A stretch of DNA of 64,000 nucleotides from Streptomyces sp. TN58 (GTDB taxonomy: Bacteria; Actinomycetota; Actinomycetes; Streptomycetales; Streptomycetaceae): NCBI RefSeq assembly GCF_001941845.1, contig NZ_CP018870.1, forward strand, positions 6,796,001 through 6,860,000. Reading direction: 5' to 3'. This document shows positions 51,989 to 64,000 of this stretch, piece by piece (the first letter of the stretch is position 1; every line of letters starts with the position of its first letter). Both the position numbers and the translations under genes were made by a program. Below the pieces are notes generated by a model, which was given only the letters and a program-made list of their open reading frames with translations, was not told where the DNA came from and made no database searches.

Positions 51989-52540
51989 ATGACCGGACAC
52001 CGGCACGCCGCCTGGCCGCCCGCCCCGATACGCACCGAGCGCCTCGTGCTGCGGGCCTCCGAGGCGCGCGACCGTGCGGCCTTCGTCGACCTGTTCGCGT
52101 CACCGGAGGTGGGCGTCTACGCCGGCGGCTCCCGCCCGCGTGACGAGCTGGAACGCACGGCCCCCGAAGTGCCCGGCCAACGGCCGGGCTTCTTCGTCGC
52201 CGAGCTCGACCGAGCGATGATCGGCATGATCACACTCGACCCGCGCGACGCCGGGCGACCCGGACACGTCCGCCCGGGCGGTGGGGAGACCGAGCTCGGC
52301 TACATGTTCCTGCCGCGGGCGTGGGGCCGCGGATACGCCGCCGAGGCCTGCACGGCGGCCCTCGACTGGCTCGCCGGGGTACGCCCCGGCGAGCCGGTCG
52401 TACTGTGCACCCAGAGCGCCAACGACCGCGCGATGCGCCTCGCGGCGAGGCTGGGCTTCACCGAGGTGGAGCGGTTCGAGGAGTTCGGCGCCGAGCAGTG
52501 GTTCGGCGTGCGCGAACTGCCCGCCTCCACCGGGGTCTGA
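51989..52540 (+). CDS. GNAT-family N-acetyltransferase
   Basis: A 183-residue acetyltransferase of the RimJ/RimL-like group: IRTERLVLRASEARDRAAFV at the start, a central strand GFFVAELDRAMIGMITLDPR, the acetyl-CoA loop region LGYMFLPRAWGRGYAAEACT (R-x-x-G-x-G/A) and LCTQSANDRAMRLAARLGFT near the end. The acceptor is unknown. It follows the DUF4235 gene by 50 bases and precedes the long regulatory gap in front of the SARP gene. It could be an isolated gene or the left neighbour of the RiPP cluster. Confidence 0.85.
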   Translation: MTGHRHAAWPPAPIRTERLVLRASEARDRAAFVDLFASPEVGVYAGGSRPRDELERTAPEVPGQRPGFFVAELDRAMIGMITLDPRDAGRPGHVRPGGGETELGYMFLPRAWGRGYAAEACTAALDWLAGVRPGEPVVLCTQSANDRAMRLAARLGFTEVERFEEFGAEQWFGVRELPASTGV

Positions 52541-52884
52541 GATCAGCCATATCAGTGGCGCGATATGCACCTTAATTGGATCACGACAACGTGCTTGGAT
52601 AGCGCCTCCACGGTAATTCGTTTACCGCTTAACGGTTTTGGCGAACCGGCGGTAACTCCTCGAAGCGTCCGGGTTACGGAGAAGGGAGAACAATGCGGCG
52701 GGAAGGAATTGGGTCATCCGCCGGCTCGACTTCCACAAGATCCGTTATGTAGTGTTCCCGTTATTCACCGCCCAACGGGGGGCGGACGGCGACTCGGGGA
52801 TTGGTCCGGACTATTTCCGGCGTGTGACGGCCCCGCAGAACCGGCAGACCACCGCCCCCGCCGCGCTCCCCATTGGGGGAATGC
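52541..52884. promoter_or_regulatory. AT-rich regulatory gap with three inverted repeats before the SARP gene
   Basis: Unusually AT-rich for this genome. Perfect inverted repeats are CATATC-N8-GATATG at 52548-52567, GGTAA-N5-TTACC at 52612-52626 and CGGTT-N6-AACCG at 52633-52648. GGGGGA at 52875-52880 is the likely ribosome-binding site of the SARP gene. A 19-codon frame at 52693-52752 is considered and rejected as a precursor peptide. Confidence 0.55.
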
Positions 52885-54672
52885 GTGTCCCGACACGGGG
52901 GATCAATCATCCGGTTCCAGCTTTTGGGGCCCTTGAGCATTGCGCACGGCCCCGAAACCGTCGTTCTCAAACCGTCCAAGCCGACCAGCCTCCTCGCCGC
53001 ACTTCTGCTCCACCCCAACACCGTGGTCTCGACCGCCTACCTGCTGCGCGCCGTGTGGGACGAGGAACCGCCCGCCACGGCCCGCGCCGCACTGCAGACG
53101 TGCGTCCTGCGACTGCGCCGGCTGTTCGCCGAGTACGGCATATCCGCGACCACCATCGAGGCCGTGCCGGGCGGTTACCGGATGCGCAGCGACACCGGGA
53201 CCCTCGATCTCGTCCGCTTCCGCACCCTCGCGGCACGGGCCGGAGCGGCTGCCGACCCGGGGGAGGAGCTCTACGGGCTGCGCGAGGCGCTTTCCCTCTG
53301 GCAGGGGCAGCCCCTCGCCAACGTCGCCTCCCGCATGCTCCAGCGCGACGCGGTGCCCGCCCTCGAACAGGAGCGGCTGCGGGTGCTGGAGCGGGTCTGC
53401 GACCTCGAACTCGCCGCGGGCAACTGCCATCAGGTCCTCGTCGACCTGTACGAGAGCGCACGCCGGCACCCGGTCCGCGAACGCTTCACCGAGCAGCTCG
53501 TCGAAGCGCTCTACCGCACCGGTCGGCAGGCCGAGGCGCTTGCCGAGTACCGCACGGTGCGCGACCGGCTGCGCGACGAACTCGGCATCGACCCCGGACC
53601 GGGACTGCGCCGCCTGGAACTCGCCATCCTGCGCGCCGAGGAGCTGGCGCCCGCCCCGCCGCGGCCGCCCGCGCGCACCGCGGCCGCGGCAGGAGCCCCC
53701 GCGCTGCCCCCCGGCGCGTCCGCCGGCCCGACGGCCCCGAGCCGACCGGGCCGGCCGGGCCGTGCGGTACCGCCCGTCCCGGCGTTCGCCGGGCGCGAGG
53801 CCGACCGCGGGGCCATGGCCGCCCGGCTCACCGCCGCCCGTGGACCGCGCCTGGTCGTGGTCTCCGGAGCGCCCGGCATCGGCAAGTCCGCGCTCGCCCG
53901 CCAGACCGCCCACGAGGTGCAGGAAGCTTTCCCCGGCGGCGTGTTCACCCTCCGGCTGGCCCGGCCGGACGGGACTGCGGTCGCCGTCGAGGAGGCGGCG
54001 CGGCTCCTGCCGGACGAGGCCCCCGGCCGCTGCCTGATCGTCCTGGACGGCGCGGCCGGCGCCTGGCAGGTGCTGCCGCTGCTGGCCGCCGCGGAGGACG
54101 CCGCCGTCCTCGTGACCAGCCGGCGCCAACTGGCCGCGGTCGTCGCCACGCACGGCGGCGCCGTGCACCGCCTCGACGTGCTCCGGCCCCCCGAGGCGTA
54201 CGGGCTCCTCGCCGGGCTCGTCGGCCCGGAACGCATCGCGACGGAGCCCGCCGCGGCCCGCGAACTGGCCTGCGCCTGCGGGCACTTCCCGCTCGCCCTG
54301 CGGATCGCCGCAGGACGGCTGCTGACAAGGCCCGGCCTGTCCGTCGCGGACTGCGCGGCCTGGATCGCGGAGGATCCCCCCGCACGGCTGGCGCTCGCGG
54401 AGGACCCCGGGCTCTCCGTCCCCGAGGTGCTGGGGCAGGCGCTCGACGCGCTGGACCCCGAGCTGCGTGAGGCGTTCCTCCGGCTGGGCGCAGCCGGAGC
54501 CGCCGCGGACCCGTCGGCCGGGGAGAGCGAAACCGTACTCGAACAGCTCGTGGAGGCGGGTCTGTTGGAGGACGGCCCGCCCGGCCCCTACCGCCTCCAC
54601 GACCTGCTCCGCAGCTACGCGCGTTGGCGCGTGCGCACGCGGGAGACGGCGGCCCCGGCCGCGCCGCGCTGA
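52885..54672 (+). CDS. SARP-type transcriptional activator with NB-ARC domain
   Basis: A 595-residue regulator; the GTG was preferred over the TTG four codons earlier because of GGGGGA at good spacing. Residues about 10-90 are the OmpR-like winged HTH (FQLLGPLSIAHGPETVVLKP, SLLAALLLHPNTVVSTAYLL, CVLRLRRLFAEYG). Residues about 95-245 are the BTAD domain (ALPSLWQGQPLANVASRMLQ-like, VLERVCDLELAAGNCHQVLV, YRTGRQAEALAEYRTVRDRL). From about 300 there is an ATPase/NB-ARC-like region with P-loop VVSGAPGIGKSALARQ and LIVLDGAAGAWQVLPLL. SARPs activate antibiotic biosynthetic operons by binding direct repeats. It is the first gene of the RiPP cluster and the probable pathway activator. Confidence 0.87.
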   Translation: MSRHGGSIIRFQLLGPLSIAHGPETVVLKPSKPTSLLAALLLHPNTVVSTAYLLRAVWDEEPPATARAALQTCVLRLRRLFAEYGISATTIEAVPGGYRMRSDTGTLDLVRFRTLAARAGAAADPGEELYGLREALSLWQGQPLANVASRMLQRDAVPALEQERLRVLERVCDLELAAGNCHQVLVDLYESARRHPVRERFTEQLVEALYRTGRQAEALAEYRTVRDRLRDELGIDPGPGLRRLELAILRAEELAPAPPRPPARTAAAAGAPALPPGASAGPTAPSRPGRPGRAVPPVPAFAGREADRGAMAARLTAARGPRLVVVSGAPGIGKSALARQTAHEVQEAFPGGVFTLRLARPDGTAVAVEEAARLLPDEAPGRCLIVLDGAAGAWQVLPLLAAAEDAAVLVTSRRQLAAVVATHGGAVHRLDVLRPPEAYGLLAGLVGPERIATEPAAARELACACGHFPLALRIAAGRLLTRPGLSVADCAAWIAEDPPARLALAEDPGLSVPEVLGQALDALDPELREAFLRLGAAGAAADPSAGESETVLEQLVEAGLLEDGPPGPYRLHDLLRSYARWRVRTRETAAPAAPR

Positions 54673-54713
54673 CCCCGCAGGCAGACCCCGCACGGCCCGC
54701 TCCGCCCCGCACC

Positions 54714-54858
54714 CGTCGCCGTCCCGCACCGTCGCCGTCCCGCACCGTCGCCGTCCCGCACCCGTCGCCGTCCCGCACCCGTCTCCGTCCCGCCGCACGC
54801 CTCCCTGCTGTCGGCTCCCTCCCGTCCAGGCTCCCTCCCGTCCAGGCTCCCTCCCCGA
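54714..54858 (+). repeat. Two 16-bp tandem repeat arrays upstream of the RiPP operon
   Basis: First array: five copies of CGTCGCCGTCCCGCAC at 54714, 54730, 54746, 54763 and 54780 (the last with two changes). Second array: GGCTCCCTCCCGTCCA at 54813 and 54829 plus a partial copy at 54845. They fill the 217-base gap between the SARP and F-protein genes, where the operon's promoter should be. The period is close to 1.5 helical turns. Confidence 0.8.
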
Positions 54859-54889
54859 TCCCGCCCAGACCGCACCCAGGGGTGTTCCC

Positions 54890-57166
54890 ATGGCCCACGC
54901 CAGCTACGAAGCCGTCGCCGAGACCCGTCCCCGGATCCGCCGCGACGTGCTGTTCACCGAGACGCCCGACGGCGTGCTGTTCCACAACGCGGACGGGGGC
55001 TTCCGCCTCACGGCCACGTCCGCCTACCGCTTCGCGACGCTGATCGTCCCCCACCTCACCGGCGAGCACTCCGTCGCCGACCTGTGCCGGGGCCTCGGCG
55101 AAGCGCAGCAGACGATGGTCGGCGAACTCGTCCGGACCCTGTACGAACGGGATTTCGCCCGGCCCGTCACCACCCCCGCCGGACCCGGGGCCGGCCAGGC
55201 GGCGCCCGATCCGGACGTGGCCCGCCGGTACGCCCCGCAGATCGCCTACGCCGACCACTACTCCGACGACGCCGAGGCACGCTTCCTGCGCTTCCGCCAC
55301 ACCCGGGTGGCCGTCCTGGGCGACGACGACATCGCCCGCTGGTGCGCGGCGAGCCTGATACGCAACGGCTGCGCGGTCGTCGGCGTGTCACCGGCCCTGG
55401 CCGCGCCGGCCCCCGCCGCGCCCGCCTCCGGTACTCCCGCCCTGGACGCCGAGGTGGCCGAGGCCGTCGCCGACGGCTGCCCGGTCGAGCTCCGCACCCT
55501 GCCGGCGGCCCCGGGAGGGGAACCCGCCTGGCCCGAACTCTCCGGCTACGACCTCGTGGTCGTCACCGGCGGCCGCACCGCACCCGCCCGCCTCCTGCCG
55601 CTGCTGCGCGCCGGCATCCCGGCCGGCCGCACGCTGCTCCCGGCCTGGACCTACGGCGCCGACGCCGTCATCGGACCGCTCATGACCTCCGGCACCCCCG
55701 GCTGCTGGGCCTGCGCCGCGCTCCGGCTCGGCGCCGCCGCCGGCCGTGACGGCGCCACCGCGGCCGCCGCCGACCTGTGGAGCACCCTGGCCCTGCCCGG
55801 CGGGCCCGCCGCGGCCGGCCCGGAGCCGGGGCGTCCACTGGCCGCCATGATCGGCAACCTCCTGGGCTACGAGGTCTTCCGCACCACCTCCGGGGCCCTG
55901 CCCGCCGAGACCGCCGGCCAGCTGATCGTGCAGGACATGGCCTCCCTCGACGTCACGGCCGAGCCGCTCCACGCCCACCCGCGCTGCCCCTTCTGCGCCC
56001 CGGACGCCGAGGCCGCCCGACGGCCCGTGACGCCGGTGGACCTCGCCGAAGCGGGTACCGTCGCGGCCGCCGCCCTGCCCACCCTGGAGACGGCACGCGA
56101 AGCGGACGCCCTGGTGGAGGAGCTGAACCGGCGCTCGGCGCTGGTCCGCCCATACGCCGGCGTCTTCACACGCTACGCCGACGAGCCGCTGACCCAGATC
56201 CCCCTCAAGCTGAGCGCGGTCGAGTTCGGCACCGGCCCCGCGGGCCCCCGGACGGTCACGGCCTTCGACGTCCACCATGTCGCCGGGGCCCGGATGCGGG
56301 CGCTGGACGCCGCCGCGGTGGTCTACGCCGAACACGTGGTGCCCGCCCACGGCGTCGCCGCCAGGGGTGGGGGCGCGGTGCCGGAGGACTCGCTGACCGT
56401 CGCCTCCGGGCTGCCCGGCACGGCCGCCGCCTGGCAGCAGGCCGTCTCCCTCGTCACGAAGGAGCCCGCGCTCGTGCCCGCCGGCGCGGTCCGCCCCTTC
56501 GGCCCCCACAACGCCGACCGACTCTTCGAACGTACCCGCGCCGGCGCCGGGGCCGGACCCTCGCCCGCCGACGCGGCCGCCGCGGGCCTGCTGTCCGCCC
56601 TGGCCCACGACGCCCTGCTGCGGGCCGTCCGCGGCTGCGCCGCAGCACCGGTACCGCTGCCCACCGGCACCGGCACCGGCACCGGCACCGGCGCCGAACT
56701 CGTCTTCCTCGTACGGTCGGCCGATCGCCTGGGGCTCCCCGTCGAACTCCTCGACCTCGGCGAGGCGGCGCACTCCGGCGTCCAGGTGCTGCTGGCCCGG
56801 GCCGGGGAGCGCTGGGCCGTGGGCGCGGCCCTGGACCGGCGGACCGCGGCGGTGGCCGCGCTGCGGGACCTGCTGGGCGCCGTCCAGTACGAGCGGGACG
56901 ACGCTGCCCCCGGCGGGCCCGCCGACACCGGTGACCCGCTCCTGGCCGACCTCGACGCCCGTACGCTCACGACCGAACCCGGCGCCCGGCCCCAGGGCCC
57001 CGCCCGGGCCGCCGCCGACTGGTCGGAGGTGCTGGGCCGGCTGCGCGCGGCGGGCCGCGACGCCTACGCCGTCCCCACCGGGGCACCGGACCTCGCCTCG
57101 GCCGGACTCCACACCGCCAGAGTGCTGCTGACCACCGCCCAGGAGCCGGGCGATGACGACAACTGA
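54890..57166 (+). CDS. Azole-RiPP leader-binding/E1-like F protein (ocin-ThiF-like)
   Basis: A 758-residue protein of the cyclodehydratase complex. Residues about 12-95 form the RiPP-recognition (PqqD-like) winged helix (RRDVLFTETPDGVLFHNADG, YRFATLIVPHLTGEHSVADL), which binds the leader peptide. Residues about 120-375 form an E1/ThiF-like fold (VAVLGDDDIARWCAASLIRN) with two zinc cysteine pairs, C272/C275 in GCWACA and C366/C369 in CPFC. The C-terminal ~370 residues are Ala-rich and complete the platform for the YcaO partner. The protein activates the YcaO enzyme; it makes no bond itself. The ATG is read in preference to a non-coding extension upstream. It overlaps the next gene by 14 bases. 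Tandem repeats lie just upstream. Confidence 0.85.
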   Translation: MAHASYEAVAETRPRIRRDVLFTETPDGVLFHNADGGFRLTATSAYRFATLIVPHLTGEHSVADLCRGLGEAQQTMVGELVRTLYERDFARPVTTPAGPGAGQAAPDPDVARRYAPQIAYADHYSDDAEARFLRFRHTRVAVLGDDDIARWCAASLIRNGCAVVGVSPALAAPAPAAPASGTPALDAEVAEAVADGCPVELRTLPAAPGGEPAWPELSGYDLVVVTGGRTAPARLLPLLRAGIPAGRTLLPAWTYGADAVIGPLMTSGTPGCWACAALRLGAAAGRDGATAAAADLWSTLALPGGPAAAGPEPGRPLAAMIGNLLGYEVFRTTSGALPAETAGQLIVQDMASLDVTAEPLHAHPRCPFCAPDAEAARRPVTPVDLAEAGTVAAAALPTLETAREADALVEELNRRSALVRPYAGVFTRYADEPLTQIPLKLSAVEFGTGPAGPRTVTAFDVHHVAGARMRALDAAAVVYAEHVVPAHGVAARGGGAVPEDSLTVASGLPGTAAAWQQAVSLVTKEPALVPAGAVRPFGPHNADRLFERTRAGAGAGPSPADAAAAGLLSALAHDALLRAVRGCAAAPVPLPTGTGTGTGTGAELVFLVRSADRLGLPVELLDLGEAAHSGVQVLLARAGERWAVGAALDRRTAAVAALRDLLGAVQYERDDAAPGGPADTGDPLLADLDARTLTTEPGARPQGPARAAADWSEVLGRLRAAGRDAYAVPTGAPDLASAGLHTARVLLTTAQEPGDDDN

Positions 57167-59177
57167 CCCCCTGACCACAACCGACCGCCCGACGACAGCT
57201 GATCCCCTGGCGGGTCCGCCTACGGCCGCCGGTCCGCTGACCGCCTGCGACCCCGGCCTCTCCCACACCCTCGGCCCCGAGGCCGCGGCCCGCTTCGCCG
57301 CCCGGCTGGACCGTGTCCTCGCCGCGCTGGGCGGGCCCCCGGCCACGCTCACCCCCCTCGGTGCCGGCGACGCCTTCATCCGGCCCGCCCCCGCCGAGAC
57401 CCCCGCCGGCAGCCGGGCCGGCGCCGTGCCCGTGCACCTGTACGGGCACCAGGCGGTCGTCGGGCCGCCCGGCGGCTGCGCCCGCTGCCTGGAACGCCGC
57501 TGGCAGGCCGTTCGGTCCGTCGCGCTCCGCGACGCCCTCGAACTCGGCGGCGGCACCCGGCCCGCCGGGGACTGGCCGTACGCGCACCCCTTCGCCGCCG
57601 ACGCGCTGGCCGCCCTGATGACGGCCGCCCGGGAACCACGCCCCGGCGCCCCCGGGCCCGGCGGCGTCTTCCCCGACGTCCGCCTCCTGGACCTGCGGAC
57701 CGGCCTCGTACGCCGGTACCCGCTGGTCCCCGACCCGGAGTGCCCGGGCTGCGCCACCCCGTACGAGGACACCGCCGACGCGGCCGTGCCCGAACTGCCG
57801 CCCGCGCCGAAACACCGGCCCGGCGTGTTCCGTACCCGGCCCGTCGAGTCGTACGGCATCGACGTGGCGGCCTTCGCGAACCCGCTGTGCGGGGCACTGG
57901 GGCCCTCCCTCGTCCAGGACGTCTCGTCGACCTCCACCTCCGCCACCATCGGCTGCTTCTCCATGCGCTCGGGCGCGTACCTGCGCGAGACGTTCTGGGG
58001 CGGCCACACCGACTCCTTCGCGCGCAGCGCCCACGTCGGGGTCCTGGAAGGCCTGGAGCGCTACGCCGGGATGCGGGCGCGCGCCCGGACCACGAGCGTC
58101 ACCGGCTCCCTGACGCGGTTCGGCGCCGACGCCGTCGACCCGCGGGAGACCGGCCTCTACAGCGATGCCTTCCACCGGGACAACCCGCGCGTACGCCCCT
58201 TCGACCCCGACCGGGAGATCGCCTGGGTGTGGGGCTGGTCGCTGCGCGACCGGGTGCCCCGCCTGGTCCCGGAGATCCTGACGTACTACCACGCCCCGGG
58301 CCTTGAGAACCGGTTCGTGCAGGAGAGCTCCAACGGCTGCGCCTCCGGCGGCAGCTTCGCCGAGGCCGCCTACTTCGGCCTGATGGAGGTCGTCGAACGC
58401 GACGCGTTCCTGCTCACCTGGTACGGGCGCCAGCCGCTGCCCGAGATCGACCCGGCGAGCAGTTCCCGGCCCTCGACCCGGGCGATGGTCGACCGGCTGG
58501 CGATGTACGGCTACCGGGCCCGGTTCTTCGACACCCGCATCACCTTCCCCGTCCCCGTCGTGACGGCGGTCGCCGAACGGTTCGACGGCGGTCCCGGCCG
58601 GATGTGCTTCGGCGCCGGCGCCGGCCTCGACCCCGAGTCCGCCCTGGCCTCGGCCCTGTGCGAGATCGCCACGGACGCCGTCAACCTGCCCGGGCGCACC
58701 GAGCGGGACGAGACCCGGCTGCGCGCCATGGCGGCCGACTTCGACCTGGTCACGGCGCTGCACGACCATCCGCTCGTCTACGGGATCCCGGAGATGGGCG
58801 GGCACGCGGACTTCCTGCTGCGCGGTCCCGGCCCCGGCCGCGGGCGCCCGCGGACCGTCGCCGAGCTGGCGTGGCCCGACGCGTGGGGCGCCCCCGCCTC
58901 GGACGACGTGCGCACCGACCTGGAGCGGTGCGTGGCGGCCGTCGCGGCCGAGGGCTTCGACGTCGTGGTCGTCGACCAGACGATGCCGGAGCAGCGGGCC
59001 CTGGGGCTGCACACGGTGAGCGTGCTCGTCCCGGGTCTGCTCCCCATCGACTTCGGGTGGTCCCGGCAGCGGGCGCTCGGCATGCCGCGGATGCGGACCG
59101 GGCTGTTCGCCGCCGGTCTGCGCGAGCGCCCGCTGGAGCCCGGCGACCTCAATCCGGCACCCCACCCCTTCCCCTGA
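57153..59177 (+). CDS. YcaO-type cyclodehydratase of azole-forming RiPP
   Basis: A 674-residue ATP-dependent enzyme that turns Cys/Ser/Thr of the precursor into azolines. The N-terminal ~210 residues hold two Cys pairs (C109/C112 in GGCARC, C197/C200 in PECPGC), a zinc site of the docking domain. The YcaO domain follows, with the ATP/Mg region (TDSFARSAHVGVLEGLERYA), the conserved SSNGCASGGSFAEAAYFGLM and EVVERDAFLLTWYG block, and the C-terminal proline-rich end NPAPHPFP, which is essential for activity in this family. All key blocks are present. Start ATG overlaps the F-protein stop region. A 41-base gap with an AGGAGG site precedes the next gene. Confidence 0.9.
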   Translation: MTTTDPLTTTDRPTTADPLAGPPTAAGPLTACDPGLSHTLGPEAAARFAARLDRVLAALGGPPATLTPLGAGDAFIRPAPAETPAGSRAGAVPVHLYGHQAVVGPPGGCARCLERRWQAVRSVALRDALELGGGTRPAGDWPYAHPFAADALAALMTAAREPRPGAPGPGGVFPDVRLLDLRTGLVRRYPLVPDPECPGCATPYEDTADAAVPELPPAPKHRPGVFRTRPVESYGIDVAAFANPLCGALGPSLVQDVSSTSTSATIGCFSMRSGAYLRETFWGGHTDSFARSAHVGVLEGLERYAGMRARARTTSVTGSLTRFGADAVDPRETGLYSDAFHRDNPRVRPFDPDREIAWVWGWSLRDRVPRLVPEILTYYHAPGLENRFVQESSNGCASGGSFAEAAYFGLMEVVERDAFLLTWYGRQPLPEIDPASSSRPSTRAMVDRLAMYGYRARFFDTRITFPVPVVTAVAERFDGGPGRMCFGAGAGLDPESALASALCEIATDAVNLPGRTERDETRLRAMAADFDLVTALHDHPLVYGIPEMGGHADFLLRGPGPGRGRPRTVAELAWPDAWGAPASDDVRTDLERCVAAVAAEGFDVVVVDQTMPEQRALGLHTVSVLVPGLLPIDFGWSRQRALGMPRMRTGLFAAGLRERPLEPGDLNPAPHPFP

Positions 59178-59218
59178 CCGGCCACCGCCGGTGTCCGCCC
59201 CCCAACGCAGGAGGACCC

Positions 59219-60802
59219 ATGGGCCACGCCCATGTCTACGCCCACGAGATCATGCACCGTGGCAGGGTGCCGATGGAGCCCGTCGACTTCGTCCCCGACT
59301 GGGCCGACCGGCCCCGCAAGGCCAAGTTCCACCCGGACGCCGAGACGTTCCCGCTGCCTCCCTCGCCGGCCGGGCCCCCGCGCACCGCGCCGGGACGGTC
59401 CGCGCCCGGCTTCACCCTGTCGCTGCTGTCCGGGATGCTCAGGGACTCGTACGGGCTGACCGGCCGGCGCCTCGCGGTCCAGGCCAACACCGACCTGGCT
59501 GCCCTGCCGCACTACACGCACGCCAACTGGTCGCGCGGCACGGCCTCGGGCGGCGGCCTGTACCCGGTGGCCGTCCACTGGGCCGCCGGTCCGGGCGGAC
59601 CGCTGACCCCCGGCCTCTACCACTACGCACCGCACCAGCACGGGCTGCGCCGGCTCCTGGCGGGTGACGTCACGGGCGACGTCCGGGAGGCCGTCGGCGC
59701 GGGGGCGGGCGACGCCGGGCAGGCGGCGCAGTACCTCGTCCTCAGCGTCAAGTACTGGCAGAACGCCTTCAAGTACAACAGCTTCTCCTTCCACGCCGTC
59801 AGCATGGACGTGGGCGCCCTCGTACAGACCTGGCGGCTGTGGGCGGCGCGGTACGGGCTGCGGATCGACCCGCTGCTGTGGTTCGACGAGGAGAGGCTGG
59901 CCCGGCTGCTGGGCGTGGAAGCCGAGGAGGAGGGCGTCTTCGCCGTCGTCCCGCTGGCCTGGCAGGGTGCGCCGGCGCCCGCCGAAGGCGGCGCGACGGG
60001 CGCCACCGCGCGCCATCGGGACGTCGAACGCTCCCGCCGCGTCATCGAGTTCGACGCCCTGCGCCGCATCCACCGGGCGACGGCCGGGCGGGCCGCCGAC
60101 CGCCCGGCGCCGGAAGCCCTGGACGCGGCCGCCGCCCACCCGCCGCGTGGCGCCGATCCCCTGCCGCTGCCCGTTCCCCCGGAACCGCCGGCCGGCACCG
60201 GCCGCGCCCTGCGCGAGCGCCGCAGCAGCTTCGGCCGCTTCGACGCCTCCCGCCCGGTCACGGCCGGCGAGCTCGCCGCCGCGCTGGCCGACTGCGCGGC
60301 CACCCGGTTCGGGACCGAGGCGGAGCACCCCGCCGGTCCGTCCCTGACCTCGCTGTACGCCTTCGTCAACCACGTCGAGGGCGTCGCCCCGGGCGCGTAC
60401 GCCTACGACCCCGCCGCCCACACCCTGCGCCTGGTCAAGCCGGGACCGCCCGGCTCCTTCCTCCAGCGCAACTACTTCCTCTCCAACTACAACCTGGAGC
60501 AGGCCGGCGCCGTGCTCGTCCCCACGGTCCGCACCACCGCCGTACTGGACGGCGTCGGCGACCGCGGCTACCGGCTCGTGGGAGGCGCCGTCGGCGCCGT
60601 CGCCCAGACCTTCTACACCACGGCCGCGGCCTTCGGACTGGGCGCCGGAGTGGCCCTCGGCTTCGACAACATCTCCTACATCGAGGAGCTGGGGCTGACC
60701 GGCACCGACGAGGCACCCCTGCTGATCATGCTGCTCGGCCGTGAACGCCCCCGGCCGGCCGAATTCCGCCACGAGATCGCCTGTGGGGGAGAGGGACGAT
60801 GA
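59219..60802 (+). CDS. SagB-type FMN-dependent azoline dehydrogenase
   Basis: A 527-residue nitroreductase-like protein that oxidises azolines to azoles with FMN. It begins MGHAHVYAHEIMHRGRVPME. The first half contains the SagB signature RRLAVQANTDLAALPHYTHA and RGTASGGGLYPVAVHWAA. The second half is another nitroreductase unit (LRERRSSFGRFDASRPVTAG, RLVGGAVGAVAQTFYTTAAA, GVALGFDNISYIEELGLTGT), with the Lys/Tyr-rich SVKYWQNAFKYNSFSFHAVS stretch between. The ATG is preceded by AGGAGG. The stop overlaps the next ATG (ATGA), so it is coupled to the dehydratase gene. It is longer than single-domain SagB proteins but typical of thiopeptide/goadsporin clusters. Confidence 0.88.
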   Translation: MGHAHVYAHEIMHRGRVPMEPVDFVPDWADRPRKAKFHPDAETFPLPPSPAGPPRTAPGRSAPGFTLSLLSGMLRDSYGLTGRRLAVQANTDLAALPHYTHANWSRGTASGGGLYPVAVHWAAGPGGPLTPGLYHYAPHQHGLRRLLAGDVTGDVREAVGAGAGDAGQAAQYLVLSVKYWQNAFKYNSFSFHAVSMDVGALVQTWRLWAARYGLRIDPLLWFDEERLARLLGVEAEEEGVFAVVPLAWQGAPAPAEGGATGATARHRDVERSRRVIEFDALRRIHRATAGRAADRPAPEALDAAAAHPPRGADPLPLPVPPEPPAGTGRALRERRSSFGRFDASRPVTAGELAAALADCAATRFGTEAEHPAGPSLTSLYAFVNHVEGVAPGAYAYDPAAHTLRLVKPGPPGSFLQRNYFLSNYNLEQAGAVLVPTVRTTAVLDGVGDRGYRLVGGAVGAVAQTFYTTAAAFGLGAGVALGFDNISYIEELGLTGTDEAPLLIMLLGRERPRPAEFRHEIACGGEGR

Positions 60803-63633
60803 ACACCACCGAGTGGCACGCGGGCGACCGCTTCATGCTGCGCGTCGCAGGCCTCGCCCTGTCCGAGGTCCGCGCCCTGCGCGCCGACGGCACCCGCGGC
60901 TGGGCCGAGGAGGTCCTCGACGCCGAGGCCGGCCTGCGCCAGGGCGTCCGGCGGCTGGAGGACGTACTCCACGCCGCCGTCGGCGCCACCGACCAGGCGC
61001 CGGACGGCCCCGGCGCGGCCCGCCGCCGCGCACTGCTGCGGCTGCGCCGCCAGATCCACAACGACCGGCTGCCGGCGCGGCCCGACGCCTCGACCGAGAC
61101 CGCCGTGGAGGCCGTCGCCACCGTCGACGAATGCGCCGCCGAGCAGCTCGCCGGCTGGCTGCACCGGCGCCGCCTGCTGGACAAACTCCTGGCGGAGGGC
61201 CCCTCGCTGCTCACCGCCGACCTGGCGCGCAACCGGGCCGTGCTGCGCGAGCTGGTCGCCGGCGAGCGCCTGCGCAGCGGCCTCCTGCTCGCCTCGCCGG
61301 TACTCGAACGGCAGCTCGACGCCTACGTCCGCGCCGAGGGGGCGGAGAACGGGCGGACCCGCAAGGCGGAGAGGTCCCTCCTGTCGTACGTGTACCGCAC
61401 GGCCTGCAAGACGAGCCCGTTCAGCACCCTCACCGCCGTGGCCACCGGACGCTTCACGGACGCCGCCGACGCCGCGGCCCCCGACACCCAAGCCCTGGGC
61501 GCGGTGCGGGTGGACGACGAGTGGCGCAGCCACGTACGGCTCAACGTCGTGGTCCTGGCCCGGCTCGCCGAGCTGATCCTGGCCGACCCCGTGCGCCGCC
61601 GGGACCTGCCCCTGCGCCTCGCCTCCGGCTGGGGCCACGAGGACGACCGGATCCGCTACGTACGGCGCTCGGTGACGGCGGGCGACGACGCGGCCGCGGT
61701 CACCTTCGACGCCGTCCGGGACCGGCTGTTCTTCCTGCGCCGCAGCGGCACCCTCGACCGGCTCCTCGCCCTGTTCGCCGAGCGCCCCGAGCTCCGCCAC
61801 CGGGAACTGACCGACTGGCTCGCGGCCGAGCACGCCGCCGGCCCCGAGGAGTGCGAGGCGTACGTATCGGCCCTCCTCCAGCTCGGCATGGTCCGCGTGC
61901 CCCTGCTCGACACCGAGGTGCACAGCCACGACCCGCTGCGCTCCTTCCAACGGGCGCTGACCTCGCTGGAGCGCCCCTGGGCCGACCGGTTGGCAGACCT
62001 GCTCGAAGCGCCCGCCGCCGCCCTGGCCGACTACCCGGCCGCCGGGTACGCGGAGCGGGCCGGCCTGCTGCGCGCGCTGCGCGGCGGACTGCACCGCGCC
62101 CAGGAGGAGCTGGGCGCCCCGGACGCGGGCCTGCCGCACACTCTGCTGTACGAGGACGTCAGCGCCGGCCGCGACCTGCCCTGCCCGCCGCGCGACTGGA
62201 CCGCGCTGCGGTCGGTCGAGCGGATCCTGCCCGCCTTCGACCTCACCATGGCCCAGCGCATCACCTTCGAGGGGTTCTTCACCGCTCGGTACGGGGCCGG
62301 GGGCCGCTGCGAGGACATCCTCGGGCTGGTGCACGACTTCCACGAGGACTTCTTCGACCAGTACCTGTCGTTCACCGCACGGCGCAGGCCCTTCGACGAG
62401 CACGGCGAGTACGTCGCGGAGGAGAACTGGCTGGGACTGCCGGGCATCCGCGCCCTGGACGCGGCCCGCCGCACGTTCGTCGCCCGGATGCGGCACGCGT
62501 GGGCGGCCTACGAGGCCGAGCACGGCCCCGACGGGACGGCCCCCTTGCGCCTCGGCGAAGCGGACCTGGCCGCGGTGGCGGACGAACTCGCCTCGGTCAC
62601 CCCGCTGTTCGCGCCACGCTGCCACCACCTCCAGCTGGGCCTCGACCCCGCCGACGGCACCCCGCTGACCGTCCTGAACCGCTCGTACGGCGGGCTGTCC
62701 TTCCCCTTCAGCCGCTTCACCCACGCGTACGACGGGGACGGCGCGGACCTCTCCGACGCCCTGCGGGACACGGCGGAGCGGATCACCCCGTCCGGAGCGG
62801 TCCTCGCCGAGGTCACCGGCGGCCCCGTCACCACCAACCTCAACCTGCACGGCCGGCTGACCGGACACGAGATCGTCTGCCCCGGCGAGAGCGGCACCCT
62901 CCCGCCGGAGCACCGGCTGCACCTCGACGACCTGTACGCCGAGCACGTGCCGGCGACCGGTCGGGTGGTGCTGCGCTCGCGCCGGCTGGGCCGCGAGGTG
63001 ATCCCCGTCTACCTCGGCTACCTGGTGCCGCTCGCGCTGCCCGCGATACCGCGCACGCTCCTGCTGCTGTCCCCGTCGTCGATGTCACCGCTCGACGTGT
63101 GGGCGGGCGTACCGGAAGGCGCCGCGCGCGACAGCGTGACCACCCGGCCCCGGGTGGTCCACGGCGACGTCGTGCTGAGCCGCCGCAGCTGGACCACCAC
63201 CGCCGGCGAGCTGCCCGTACAGGGAGTGCGGGAAGCCGGGCACTTCCTCGACTGGCAGCGCTGGCGGCGCCGCCACGGCCTGCCCGAGCAGGCCTTCGCG
63301 ACCGTGTCGGCCGGCCCCTCGGCCGCCGGGGCCAAGCCGCAGTACGTGGACTTCGCGAGCCCCCTCTCACTCGGAGTCTTCGAGACGCTGCTGCGCGACC
63401 CGGCCCACCGGGTCGTCTTCCGCGAGGTGCTCCCCGGCCCCGAAGGGCTGCACGTGCACTCGGGGCGCGGCGCGCACGTCGCCGAACTCGCCGTGGAGAC
63501 CTTCACCACGACGCCCCGGGAGGCGGCGGCCCCAGCGGGCGCGGCAGACGCAACAGACGCACCGGACACGACAGACCAGGCAGACCAGGCAGACCAGGCA
63601 GAGCTGGAAGGCGGCACGCGATGGCCGAGATGA
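60799..63633 (+). CDS. LanB-type tRNA-Glu-dependent dehydratase (glutamylation domain)
   Basis: A 944-residue N-terminal LanB-like protein, acting with the next gene as a split dehydratase. It should transfer glutamate from glutamyl-tRNA to Ser/Thr of the precursor. Conserved blocks include VYRTACKTSPFSTLTAVATG near residue 200, LAELILADPVRRRDLPLRLA, RITFEGFFTARYGAGGRCED, and in the C-terminal third LLLSPSSMSPLDVWAGVPEG and VLSRRSWTTTAGELPVQGVR. The ATG overlaps the dehydrogenase stop. The extreme C-terminus carries a low-complexity Ala/Asp/Gln tail made by three 9-base DNA repeats (CAGACCAGG at 63572-63598). It overlaps the following gene by 13 bases. It could also serve a dehydroamino-acid-free azole peptide, but that is less likely with the partner present. 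Confidence 0.88.
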   Translation: MNTTEWHAGDRFMLRVAGLALSEVRALRADGTRGWAEEVLDAEAGLRQGVRRLEDVLHAAVGATDQAPDGPGAARRRALLRLRRQIHNDRLPARPDASTETAVEAVATVDECAAEQLAGWLHRRRLLDKLLAEGPSLLTADLARNRAVLRELVAGERLRSGLLLASPVLERQLDAYVRAEGAENGRTRKAERSLLSYVYRTACKTSPFSTLTAVATGRFTDAADAAAPDTQALGAVRVDDEWRSHVRLNVVVLARLAELILADPVRRRDLPLRLASGWGHEDDRIRYVRRSVTAGDDAAAVTFDAVRDRLFFLRRSGTLDRLLALFAERPELRHRELTDWLAAEHAAGPEECEAYVSALLQLGMVRVPLLDTEVHSHDPLRSFQRALTSLERPWADRLADLLEAPAAALADYPAAGYAERAGLLRALRGGLHRAQEELGAPDAGLPHTLLYEDVSAGRDLPCPPRDWTALRSVERILPAFDLTMAQRITFEGFFTARYGAGGRCEDILGLVHDFHEDFFDQYLSFTARRRPFDEHGEYVAEENWLGLPGIRALDAARRTFVARMRHAWAAYEAEHGPDGTAPLRLGEADLAAVADELASVTPLFAPRCHHLQLGLDPADGTPLTVLNRSYGGLSFPFSRFTHAYDGDGADLSDALRDTAERITPSGAVLAEVTGGPVTTNLNLHGRLTGHEIVCPGESGTLPPEHRLHLDDLYAEHVPATGRVVLRSRRLGREVIPVYLGYLVPLALPAIPRTLLLLSPSSMSPLDVWAGVPEGAARDSVTTRPRVVHGDVVLSRRSWTTTAGELPVQGVREAGHFLDWQRWRRRHGLPEQAFATVSAGPSAAGAKPQYVDFASPLSLGVFETLLRDPAHRVVFREVLPGPEGLHVHSGRGAHVAELAVETFTTTPREAAAPAGAADATDAPDTTDQADQADQAELEGGTRWPR

Positions 63634-64000
63634 CCCCGTCCCCCACCGGCGCGCGCGCAGACGTCCGCGCCGACGCCCGCGCCGACACCCGCGGCGCCTG
63701 GCAGGCCCTGCACATCTTCTACGCCGCCAACCCCCAACCCCTGCTGGTGCAGTGCGTCCGGCCGCTGATCGCCGGGCTGACCGCCGACGGACTCCTCGCA
63801 GGCCACTTCTTCATCAACTACTGGCTGGAGGGCCCGCACGTGCGGCTGCGGCTGCGTCCCGCCACGCCGGAAGCGGAAACCGAGGTACGGCGCCGCTCCG
63901 AGGAAGCCGTCGCCGCCTTCCTCAAGGCTCGCCCGGCCCTCTACGAGGTCGATTCCGGATTCCTCAACGAGTTCTACAACACGCTGTTCGACATCGAGTT
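63621..64000 (+). CDS. LanB-type glutamate elimination / thiopeptide-type domain, 3' end outside window
   Basis: The first 126 residues of a protein continuing past the right edge. After a Thr/Ala/Arg-rich start (AEMTPSPTGARADVRADAR) comes GAWQALHIFYAANPQPLLVQ and RPLIAGLTADGLLAGHFFIN, then the signature YWLEGPHVRLRLRPATPEAE. This WEGG/WLEGPH(V/L)RLR pattern is that of the C-terminal lantibiotic-dehydratase (thiopeptide-type bacteriocin biosynthesis) domain, which eliminates the glutamate added by the upstream enzyme, leaving dehydroalanine or dehydrobutyrine. The overlap with the upstream gene shows translational coupling. Whether this copy is an eliminase or a related cycloaddition enzyme cannot be told from this fragment alone. 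Confidence 0.8.
   Translation, partial: MAEMTPSPTGARADVRADARADTRGAWQALHIFYAANPQPLLVQCVRPLIAGLTADGLLAGHFFINYWLEGPHVRLRLRPATPEAETEVRRRSEEAVAAFLKARPALYEVDSGFLNEFYNTLFDIE

Follow-up and report, generated by a model that had tools for sequence, protein, structure and literature searches.

A conserved SARP-headed gene cluster in Streptomyces sp. TN58 for a predicted linear peptide with azoles and dehydro amino acids

The DNA considered here is a stretch of 64,000 nucleotides from Streptomyces sp. TN58 (G000:C1:6796001-6860000, contig NZ_CP018870.1), which we call the window; numbering continues past 64000 into the adjoining sequence, and a position in locus L010 equals the window position minus 63000. 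Within its right-hand end begins, and beyond it continues, a gene cluster that quite probably constitutes a complete pathway, controlled by a Streptomyces antibiotic regulatory protein (SARP), for a ribosomally synthesized and post-translationally modified peptide (RiPP) that is linear, free of pyridine, and carries azoles and dehydro amino acids. The direct support for this comes from the gene content, the gene order, the conservation of both, the residue signatures of the enzymes, the absence of a pyridine synthase from the cluster and a repeat in the promoter region of the precursor gene. The cluster is real, complete, common and strongly conserved; by the tests made, it is a variant of those for goadsporin-type azole/dehydro peptides and not a thiopeptide cluster.

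The cluster and its conservation

An initial annotation, made from the letters of the window, had recognized here part of an azole-forming RiPP cluster, namely its left half, with a SARP gene at its head. This description is supported: the six genes concerned (SARP, F, YcaO, SagB-type oxidase, LanB_N and LanB_C) lie where they had been placed, without internal stops, and the genome carries an intact right half. Extension to the right, which had been proposed as a check, also brought to light a gene for a precursor of 57 residues, 5.7 kb past the window end. Genes were called on a codon basis, and protein families were sought in ten cluster proteins, the two ABC proteins lying outside that scan. 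All 12 genes are open and none contains a TTA codon.

A contig scan with LanB_C gave 196 confirmed loci, 80 of which were kept for comparison; by title, these are 77 from Streptomyces and one each from a Streptomycetaceae bacterium, a Sphaerimonospora and a Micromonospora. All 11 genes from F to the M20 peptidase occur in 58 loci, and since their order is the same in every one of the 58, the gene set is more than a chance assemblage. A SARP gene lies to the left of F wherever at least 600 bp is available there (63/63), and the precursor gene stands antisense after YcaO2 in all 65 loci where both were found. Where at least 3.5 kb follows YcaO2 (64 loci), the precursor was found in 61 and the M20 gene in 62. 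Cross-hits between YcaO1, YcaO2 and F in truncated loci inflate the raw counts and were filtered out for the identity, precursor and order counts.

Among 394 Streptomycetaceae genomes, 88 have a LanB_C match at E ≤ 1e-50. Six of these have matches only below 59% identity, so the figure we use is the 82 genomes with at least 59%; the neighbourhood was read in ten of the 82 (the TN58 genome, L136, L147-L149 and L158-L162), and the cluster is present in all ten. A pyridine synthase over cut-off is found in 29 of the same 394 genomes, compared with 82 for LanB_C, a comparison in which queries and thresholds differ. In 396 genomes drawn across the phylum, the five LanB_C matches at E ≤ 1e-40 all belong to the same genus as the window.

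More divergent kin also exist. In L153, L156 and L157, there are two YcaO proteins, but the precursor or precursors lie on the operon strand, with core sequences like STCSSTTSSSSCCKK; L150-L152 showed one YcaO. At L156:3997-4406 and L157:15824-16236, two precursors lie in tandem, and their cores are shorter (TCSSTCSSCC types). The low-identity matches include L154:9955-11007 and L155:9591-10538, whose LanB_C relatives are 51-53% identical and represent an eliminase-like protein in another setting; they do not belong to this cluster, because F, YcaO, SagB and LanB_N have no matches near the LanB_C gene.

The single LanB_C protein: eliminase or pyridine synthase

The initial annotation had left the product as either a thiopeptide or a goadsporin-like linear peptide, and had proposed a search for a pyridine synthase. 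None is encoded in the cluster, which has one LanB_C, and a scan of the genome with the pyridine-synthase model NF045556 (cut-off 325) gave a single match, not over cut-off. Because the sole LanB_C has the signature of an eliminase and the genome has no pyridine-synthase match over cut-off, the goadsporin-like half of that alternative is favoured and the thiopeptide half disfavoured. The LanB_C of the window scores 95 bits against NF045556, matching positions 1-276 of 354; such partial coverage is seen for the other LanB_C in true thiopeptide clusters (in G027, for example, 1-268 with 111 bits).

The signature comes from an alignment, in window numbering, of nine eliminases, ten pyridine synthases and 84 rows of the present family. 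Six of the pyridine synthases exceed the NF045556 cut-off; in L133, L134, L137 and L141, the label was given to the second LanB_C in the cluster, the one with the low score. The eliminases include two fused proteins, trimmed to 320 residues, and the protein of L169, and a long-branch row (L132) was dropped before the final tree and signature analysis. H331, N335, E344, E158, E172 and Y155 are kept in all 84 family rows and all nine eliminases. The pyridine synthases have Arg in place of E344 (10/10) and Tyr (eight) or Asn (two) in place of H331. Six columns are uniform in the ten pyridine synthases and differ from the commonest state of the eliminases (L162, G225, S228, R242, an inserted His and R344); at these six, the commonest state of the family differs from the pyridine synthases as well. 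In the tree, a branch with support 100/99 separates the ten pyridine synthases from the family. By spacing alone, NisB itself not being aligned, H331 and R336 correspond to H961 and R966 of NisB; the available text of the NisB study (PMC4341554) reports that H961A abolishes dehydration.

Several observations weigh against the reading of the cluster as a whole. Two arginines present in all nine eliminases are lost from the family LanB_C, the positions being N66 in 80 of 84 rows and L197 in 76 of 84. The first of these would match NisB R775 by spacing, and the same source describes normal dehydration by the R775 Ala mutant. A grouping of the family with the pyridine synthases against the eliminases is not rejected by the approximately unbiased test (p-AU 0.33). 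The matches to NF045556 and to NF041824, a daptide metalloprotease model that recognizes the M50 protein with 97 bits (cut-off 300), are both below cut-off. No precursor was found in three of the 64 loci with enough flank (L033, L083 and L089). Finally, the precursor falls into the existing NCBIfam family TIGR03892, labelled ‘thiazolylpeptide-type bacteriocin’, a name that many homologues also bear; this label is contradicted by the enzyme content of the cluster.

A true thiopeptide, in which the pyridine is formed either by the single LanB_C acting as both eliminase and [4+2] cyclase or by an unlinked enzyme, would accommodate the TIGR03892 membership of the precursor, the presence of an F protein and the unrejected grouping. 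We consider it unlikely. Two LanB_C regions, compared with one here, were found in ten of 15 loci outside the family around NF045556 matches; one was found in L126, L130 and L135, and none in L138 and L140. In L127, L128, L131, L137, L139 and L141, one LanB_C scores high (62-140 bits) and the other low (22-49 bits) against the family LanB_C profile. The six signature columns speak against a thiopeptide, as does the first Ser of the core, which is Cys in L037 and L067. Nor do the remaining PF14028 proteins of the genome favour an unlinked enzyme: the two of them lie at a distance of 0.77 Mb, in a class I lanthipeptide cluster.

That lanthipeptide cluster (G000:C1:6089335-6096030; L095:9335-16030) encodes a LanB of 882 residues, a PF14028-PCMT methyltransferase fusion of 683 residues and a precursor-like open reading frame (ORF) with the end DDNCGSTCGACTTGVH. 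A thiopeptide-type locus of a different make-up is seen at L127:45-15473, with two YcaOs, two SagB-type enzymes, two LanB_N, an eliminase and a pyridine synthase; in several genomes, two LanB_C matches are spaced much as in this locus.

The precursor peptide and its core

The precursor is MEKSPLASLADEILELESETFEISDYSDASEVVLAGSTSCSSTSTCSSTTSTTSCSA, with AAGGAG upstream of its ATG. It contains a conserved leader stretch, LESETFEISDY, and ends in GSTSCSSTSTCSSTTSTTSCSA, a core of 21-22 residues that are all Ser, Thr or Cys except the first (Gly) and the last (Ala). Across all 65 aligned precursors (those of the window and of 64 loci; L048 is missing, presumably through a length filter), fifteen core residues, SSTSTCSSTTSTTSC, are identical; nine distinct 22-residue cores occur among these precursors, that of the window accounting for 33 rows. 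The precursors share a mean pairwise identity of 0.89; for nine proteins of biosynthesis, proteolysis and transport the values are 0.57-0.74, and for M20 the value is 0.63; the SARP figure derives from two sequences, most copies being cut by the flanks. Such invariance of a core amid divergence of its enzymes is unusual for a secreted specialized peptide. A protein search with the precursor returned 155 relatives at E ≤ 0.01, and CSSTTSTTSC is present in 86 of 120 among the matches listed.

At each of the eight Ser positions that never change across the 64 loci, TCN and AGY codons both occur; this speaks against a recent spread as the origin of the identity of the core. Codon tables were used here in place of a dN/dS test, which was discarded because TCN/AGY serine switches score as non-synonymous. 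The same observation bears on the idea that the cluster is conserved but silent or decayed, which would fit the lack of a product in the literature searched. We regard it as highly improbable, given that every gene is open, that the 15 core residues are identical despite the mixed serine codons, and that the promoter repeat described below is kept in most upstream regions.

As for novelty, the precursor family is already known in NCBIfam, and it is the product for which no description was found: the open-access literature yielded none of this core or product, and the core strings match no papers (most subscription papers and the cluster databases were outside the scope of this search). The suggestion of the initial annotation that the peptide might be new thus stands as regards the lack of a described product, but has to be set against a cluster that is common and a core that is nearly invariant.

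The YcaO cyclodehydratases and the F protein

YcaO1 and YcaO2 seem to stem from an old duplication, since a quick tree places them as sisters to each other and separate from 13 reference YcaOs (SH-aLRT 100). Of 70 columns that are near-invariant in the references, 50 are conserved at 95% or more in each of the two, among them the ExxER, ERDAF and PHPFP stretches; the other 20 differ, several of them in both paralogues. The PxPxP end, noted initially for YcaO1, is indeed kept in 63 of 64 YcaO1 rows and is found in 71 of 71 YcaO2 rows. The Cys pairs noted in YcaO1 and F are likewise retained, at least two CxxC motifs being present in 63 of 64 YcaO1 rows and 68 of 68 F rows.

The F protein appears to consist of a leader-binding region, an E1-like domain with two CxxC motifs and a C-terminal pseudo-YcaO domain. 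Its N-terminus gives a weak match to a RiPP recognition element (RRE), that of PbtF (E 0.2). At residues 700-751, it matches TIGR03604 with 28.3 bits, below cut-off, and its C-terminal half aligns to the YcaO domain with 92.5-93.1% hhalign probability; the ERD motif is replaced (ALAHDALLRA vs EVVERDAFLL). In the F protein of L046, the same region is recognized as Pfam YcaO with 63.9 bits (cut-off 25.7), whereas this model is absent at E up to 1 from six F proteins (those of the window and L015, and the references from L127, L128, L131 and L137).

The state of the YcaO proteins is also relevant to a thioether-bridged product, in which Cys would add to dehydroalanine (Dha) or dehydrobutyrine (Dhb) and few azoles would form. 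The LanB pair and the closeness of Cys to dehydratable residues in the core would suit such a product; it is nevertheless very unlikely, as both YcaOs keep the conserved motifs and PxPxP ends, and no LanC-like family was detected among the ten scanned cluster proteins.

Proposed pathway, leader removal and export

We infer the following steps and their order, and with them the leader cleavage site. The F protein would bind the conserved leader stretch, and YcaO1 and YcaO2 would convert the Cys and some of the Ser and Thr of the core into azolines, which the SagB-type enzyme would oxidize to azoles. Remaining Ser and Thr would be glutamylated by LanB_N from Glu-tRNA, and elimination of glutamate by LanB_C would leave Dha and Dhb. 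Removal of the leader may then fall to the M50 membrane protease, and export to the ABC pair.

The M50 protein has HExxH in 78 of 78 rows. Its first 100 residues resemble an RRE, judged by eye and by analogy with the daptides, for which the accessible part of PMC10036551 describes an RRE fused N-terminally to a site-2 protease; profile comparison of the F and M50 N-termini was weak (20.9%). In the consulted portion of a review (PMC10885120), M50 proteases are named in epipeptide and pearlin maturation. The M50 protease and the ABC ATPase are encoded as one ORF in L136, L147, L148 and L149.

This cluster provides natural material for asking how the work on a core in which almost all residues can be modified is divided between two YcaOs and a LanB. 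The identity of the 15 core residues, while nine proteins average 57-74% identity, predicts one conserved target. A tentative extension, which we think possible rather than likely, is that about a fifth of Streptomycetaceae species make one nearly invariant linear poly-azole/dehydro peptide as a shared function (a signal, a morphogen or a broadly effective inhibitor) and not a varying antibiotic; that the two duplicated cyclodehydratases divide their labour, for example between Cys and Ser/Thr, while a third YcaO-like domain, that of F, is catalytically dead and presents the leader; and that the product class lies between thiopeptides and goadsporin.

Regulation

SARPs bind heptamer direct repeats with an 11-bp period. 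A repeat of this kind, TGNCAG-N5-TGNCAG, is present upstream of the precursor in 44 of 66 regions, including that of the window, and absent in 22. In 200 Markov-1 resamplings, the mean was 0.02 and the maximum one of 66, a control that flatters the repeat because the pattern was set after inspection of the sequences. Across the 80 loci (3.06 Mb, both strands), there are 46 occurrences, of which 43 lie before the precursor, two before M20 and one elsewhere; none is assigned to F, and the loci for the most part do not extend to the region before the SARP gene. The probable role of the SARP is to activate the precursor promoter. Another regulator is possible, since in several loci, including the window, a third half-site forms a palindrome with the first repeat.

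Relation to known systems

Goadsporin is made by a YcaO cyclodehydratase, an FMN dehydrogenase and a split LanB (GodF/GodG), with no [4+2] enzyme in the parts of the accounts used here (PMC5303826, PMC4603692), and is a linear azole/Dha peptide. The present cluster likewise has YcaO, a SagB-type dehydrogenase, a split LanB and no pyridine synthase. It differs in having two YcaOs together with an F protein whose YcaO domain is degenerate, and also in its M50 protease, its TIGR03892-type leader and a core made up almost wholly of Ser, Thr and Cys. No GodH-type N-acetyltransferase was found among the ten scanned proteins. An acetyltransferase gene had also been looked for on the strength of the initial annotation; the GNAT gene at 51989-52540 was rejected as a GodH counterpart, there being no match upstream of the SARP gene in the four relatives read (L159-L162).

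Thiopeptides of the thiomuracin and thiostrepton type share F, YcaO, a SagB-type oxidase, a split LanB and a TIGR03892-type precursor with this cluster, which lacks their second LanB_C, the pyridine synthase. The coryneazolisins, as far as the available text of PMC4603692 goes, resemble it in having two D (YcaO) proteins, LanB-like dehydratases and no [4+2] enzyme; there, one D protein is discrete and one fused, whereas here both are E1-like/YcaO fusions, and the coryneazolisin core holds Ile, which this core does not. The likeness to the daptides is confined to the RRE-peptidase: the M50 protein matches the site-2 protease model below cut-off, its RRE is assigned by eye, and no daptide decarboxylase, aminotransferase or methyltransferase was seen among the ten scanned proteins. 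A dehydrazole-type DUF4135/LanMbC dehydratase is also absent from these ten, the dehydration genes being PF04738 and PF14028.

Streptomyces sp. CWH03, which produces the linear azole peptides spongiicolazolicins A and B, also holds the cluster of the window (L046). Spongiicolazolicin was set aside as the product on account of peptide length, 29 and 28 residues in the accessible text of PMC8838263 vs 21-22 here, and of a second YcaO/LanB cluster in the strain, L169. As CWH03 holds both, the two clusters are separate. L169 resembles the present cluster in its M50 match, LanB_N and one LanB_C; within L169:6005-16666 are four precursor-like ORFs, one with a terminal Ala/Gly-rich stretch of 29 residues, and L169 may be what makes spongiicolazolicin. 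Its M50 match suggests that an M50-type protease is common to this kind of pathway.

Gene layout and surroundings

The genes are listed in Table 1.

Table 1. Genes of the cluster in window numbering.
Feature	Position	Strand	Basis and remarks
SARP-family activator (winged helix, BTAD, NB-ARC)	52933..54672	+	Pfam BTAD 124 bits, Trans_reg_C, NB-ARC
F protein	54890..57166	+	TIGR03882 57.6 bits
YcaO1, E1-like/YcaO cyclodehydratase	57153..59177	+	TIGR03604 304 bits, TIGR03882 97.2 bits; C-terminus PHPFP
SagB-type FMN azoline dehydrogenase	59219..60802	+	TIGR03605 145 bits (cut-off 78.4), Pfam Nitroreductase
LanB_N glutamylation protein	60799..63633	+	PF04738 125 bits
LanB_C glutamate-elimination protein	63621..64760 (L010:621-1760)	+	PF14028 139 bits; cut by the window end at 64000
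M50 membrane protease	64757-65857		beyond the window
ABC ATPase	65912-66928		beyond the window; named by eye from sequence
ABC permease	66925-67680		beyond the window; named by eye from sequence
YcaO2	67677-69617		beyond the window
Precursor, 57 aa	69696-69869 (L010:6696-6869)	-	beyond the window; TIGR03892 49.5 bits (cut-off 25)
M20 peptidase	70043-71302		beyond the window

The start codon of the SARP gene is uncertain (TTG at 52873 or 52933). F and YcaO1, the oxidase and LanB_N, and LanB_N and LanB_C overlap by a few bases. The sole solved-structure match of LanB_N is 6ec7, ‘Lantibiotic dehydratase domain protein’ (E 3.2e-37). The convergent YcaO2 and precursor genes meet at a strong hairpin of 83 nt (-56.8 kcal/mol, z -3.2). 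The gap between SARP and F contains GC-rich tandem repeats, of 17 bp (5.5 copies) at 54702-54793 and of 16 bp (2.7 copies) at 54813-54855. To the right of the cluster, a prokaryotic phospholipase A2-domain protein (L010:12598-14184, minus strand) adjoins a subtilase with P-domains (L010:10068-12461, minus strand). Further on, at L011:3618-20000, some 18 to 35 kb past the end of the window, a formyltransferase, an ornithine/lysine monooxygenase and a large non-ribosomal peptide synthetase probably form a hydroxamate siderophore cluster.

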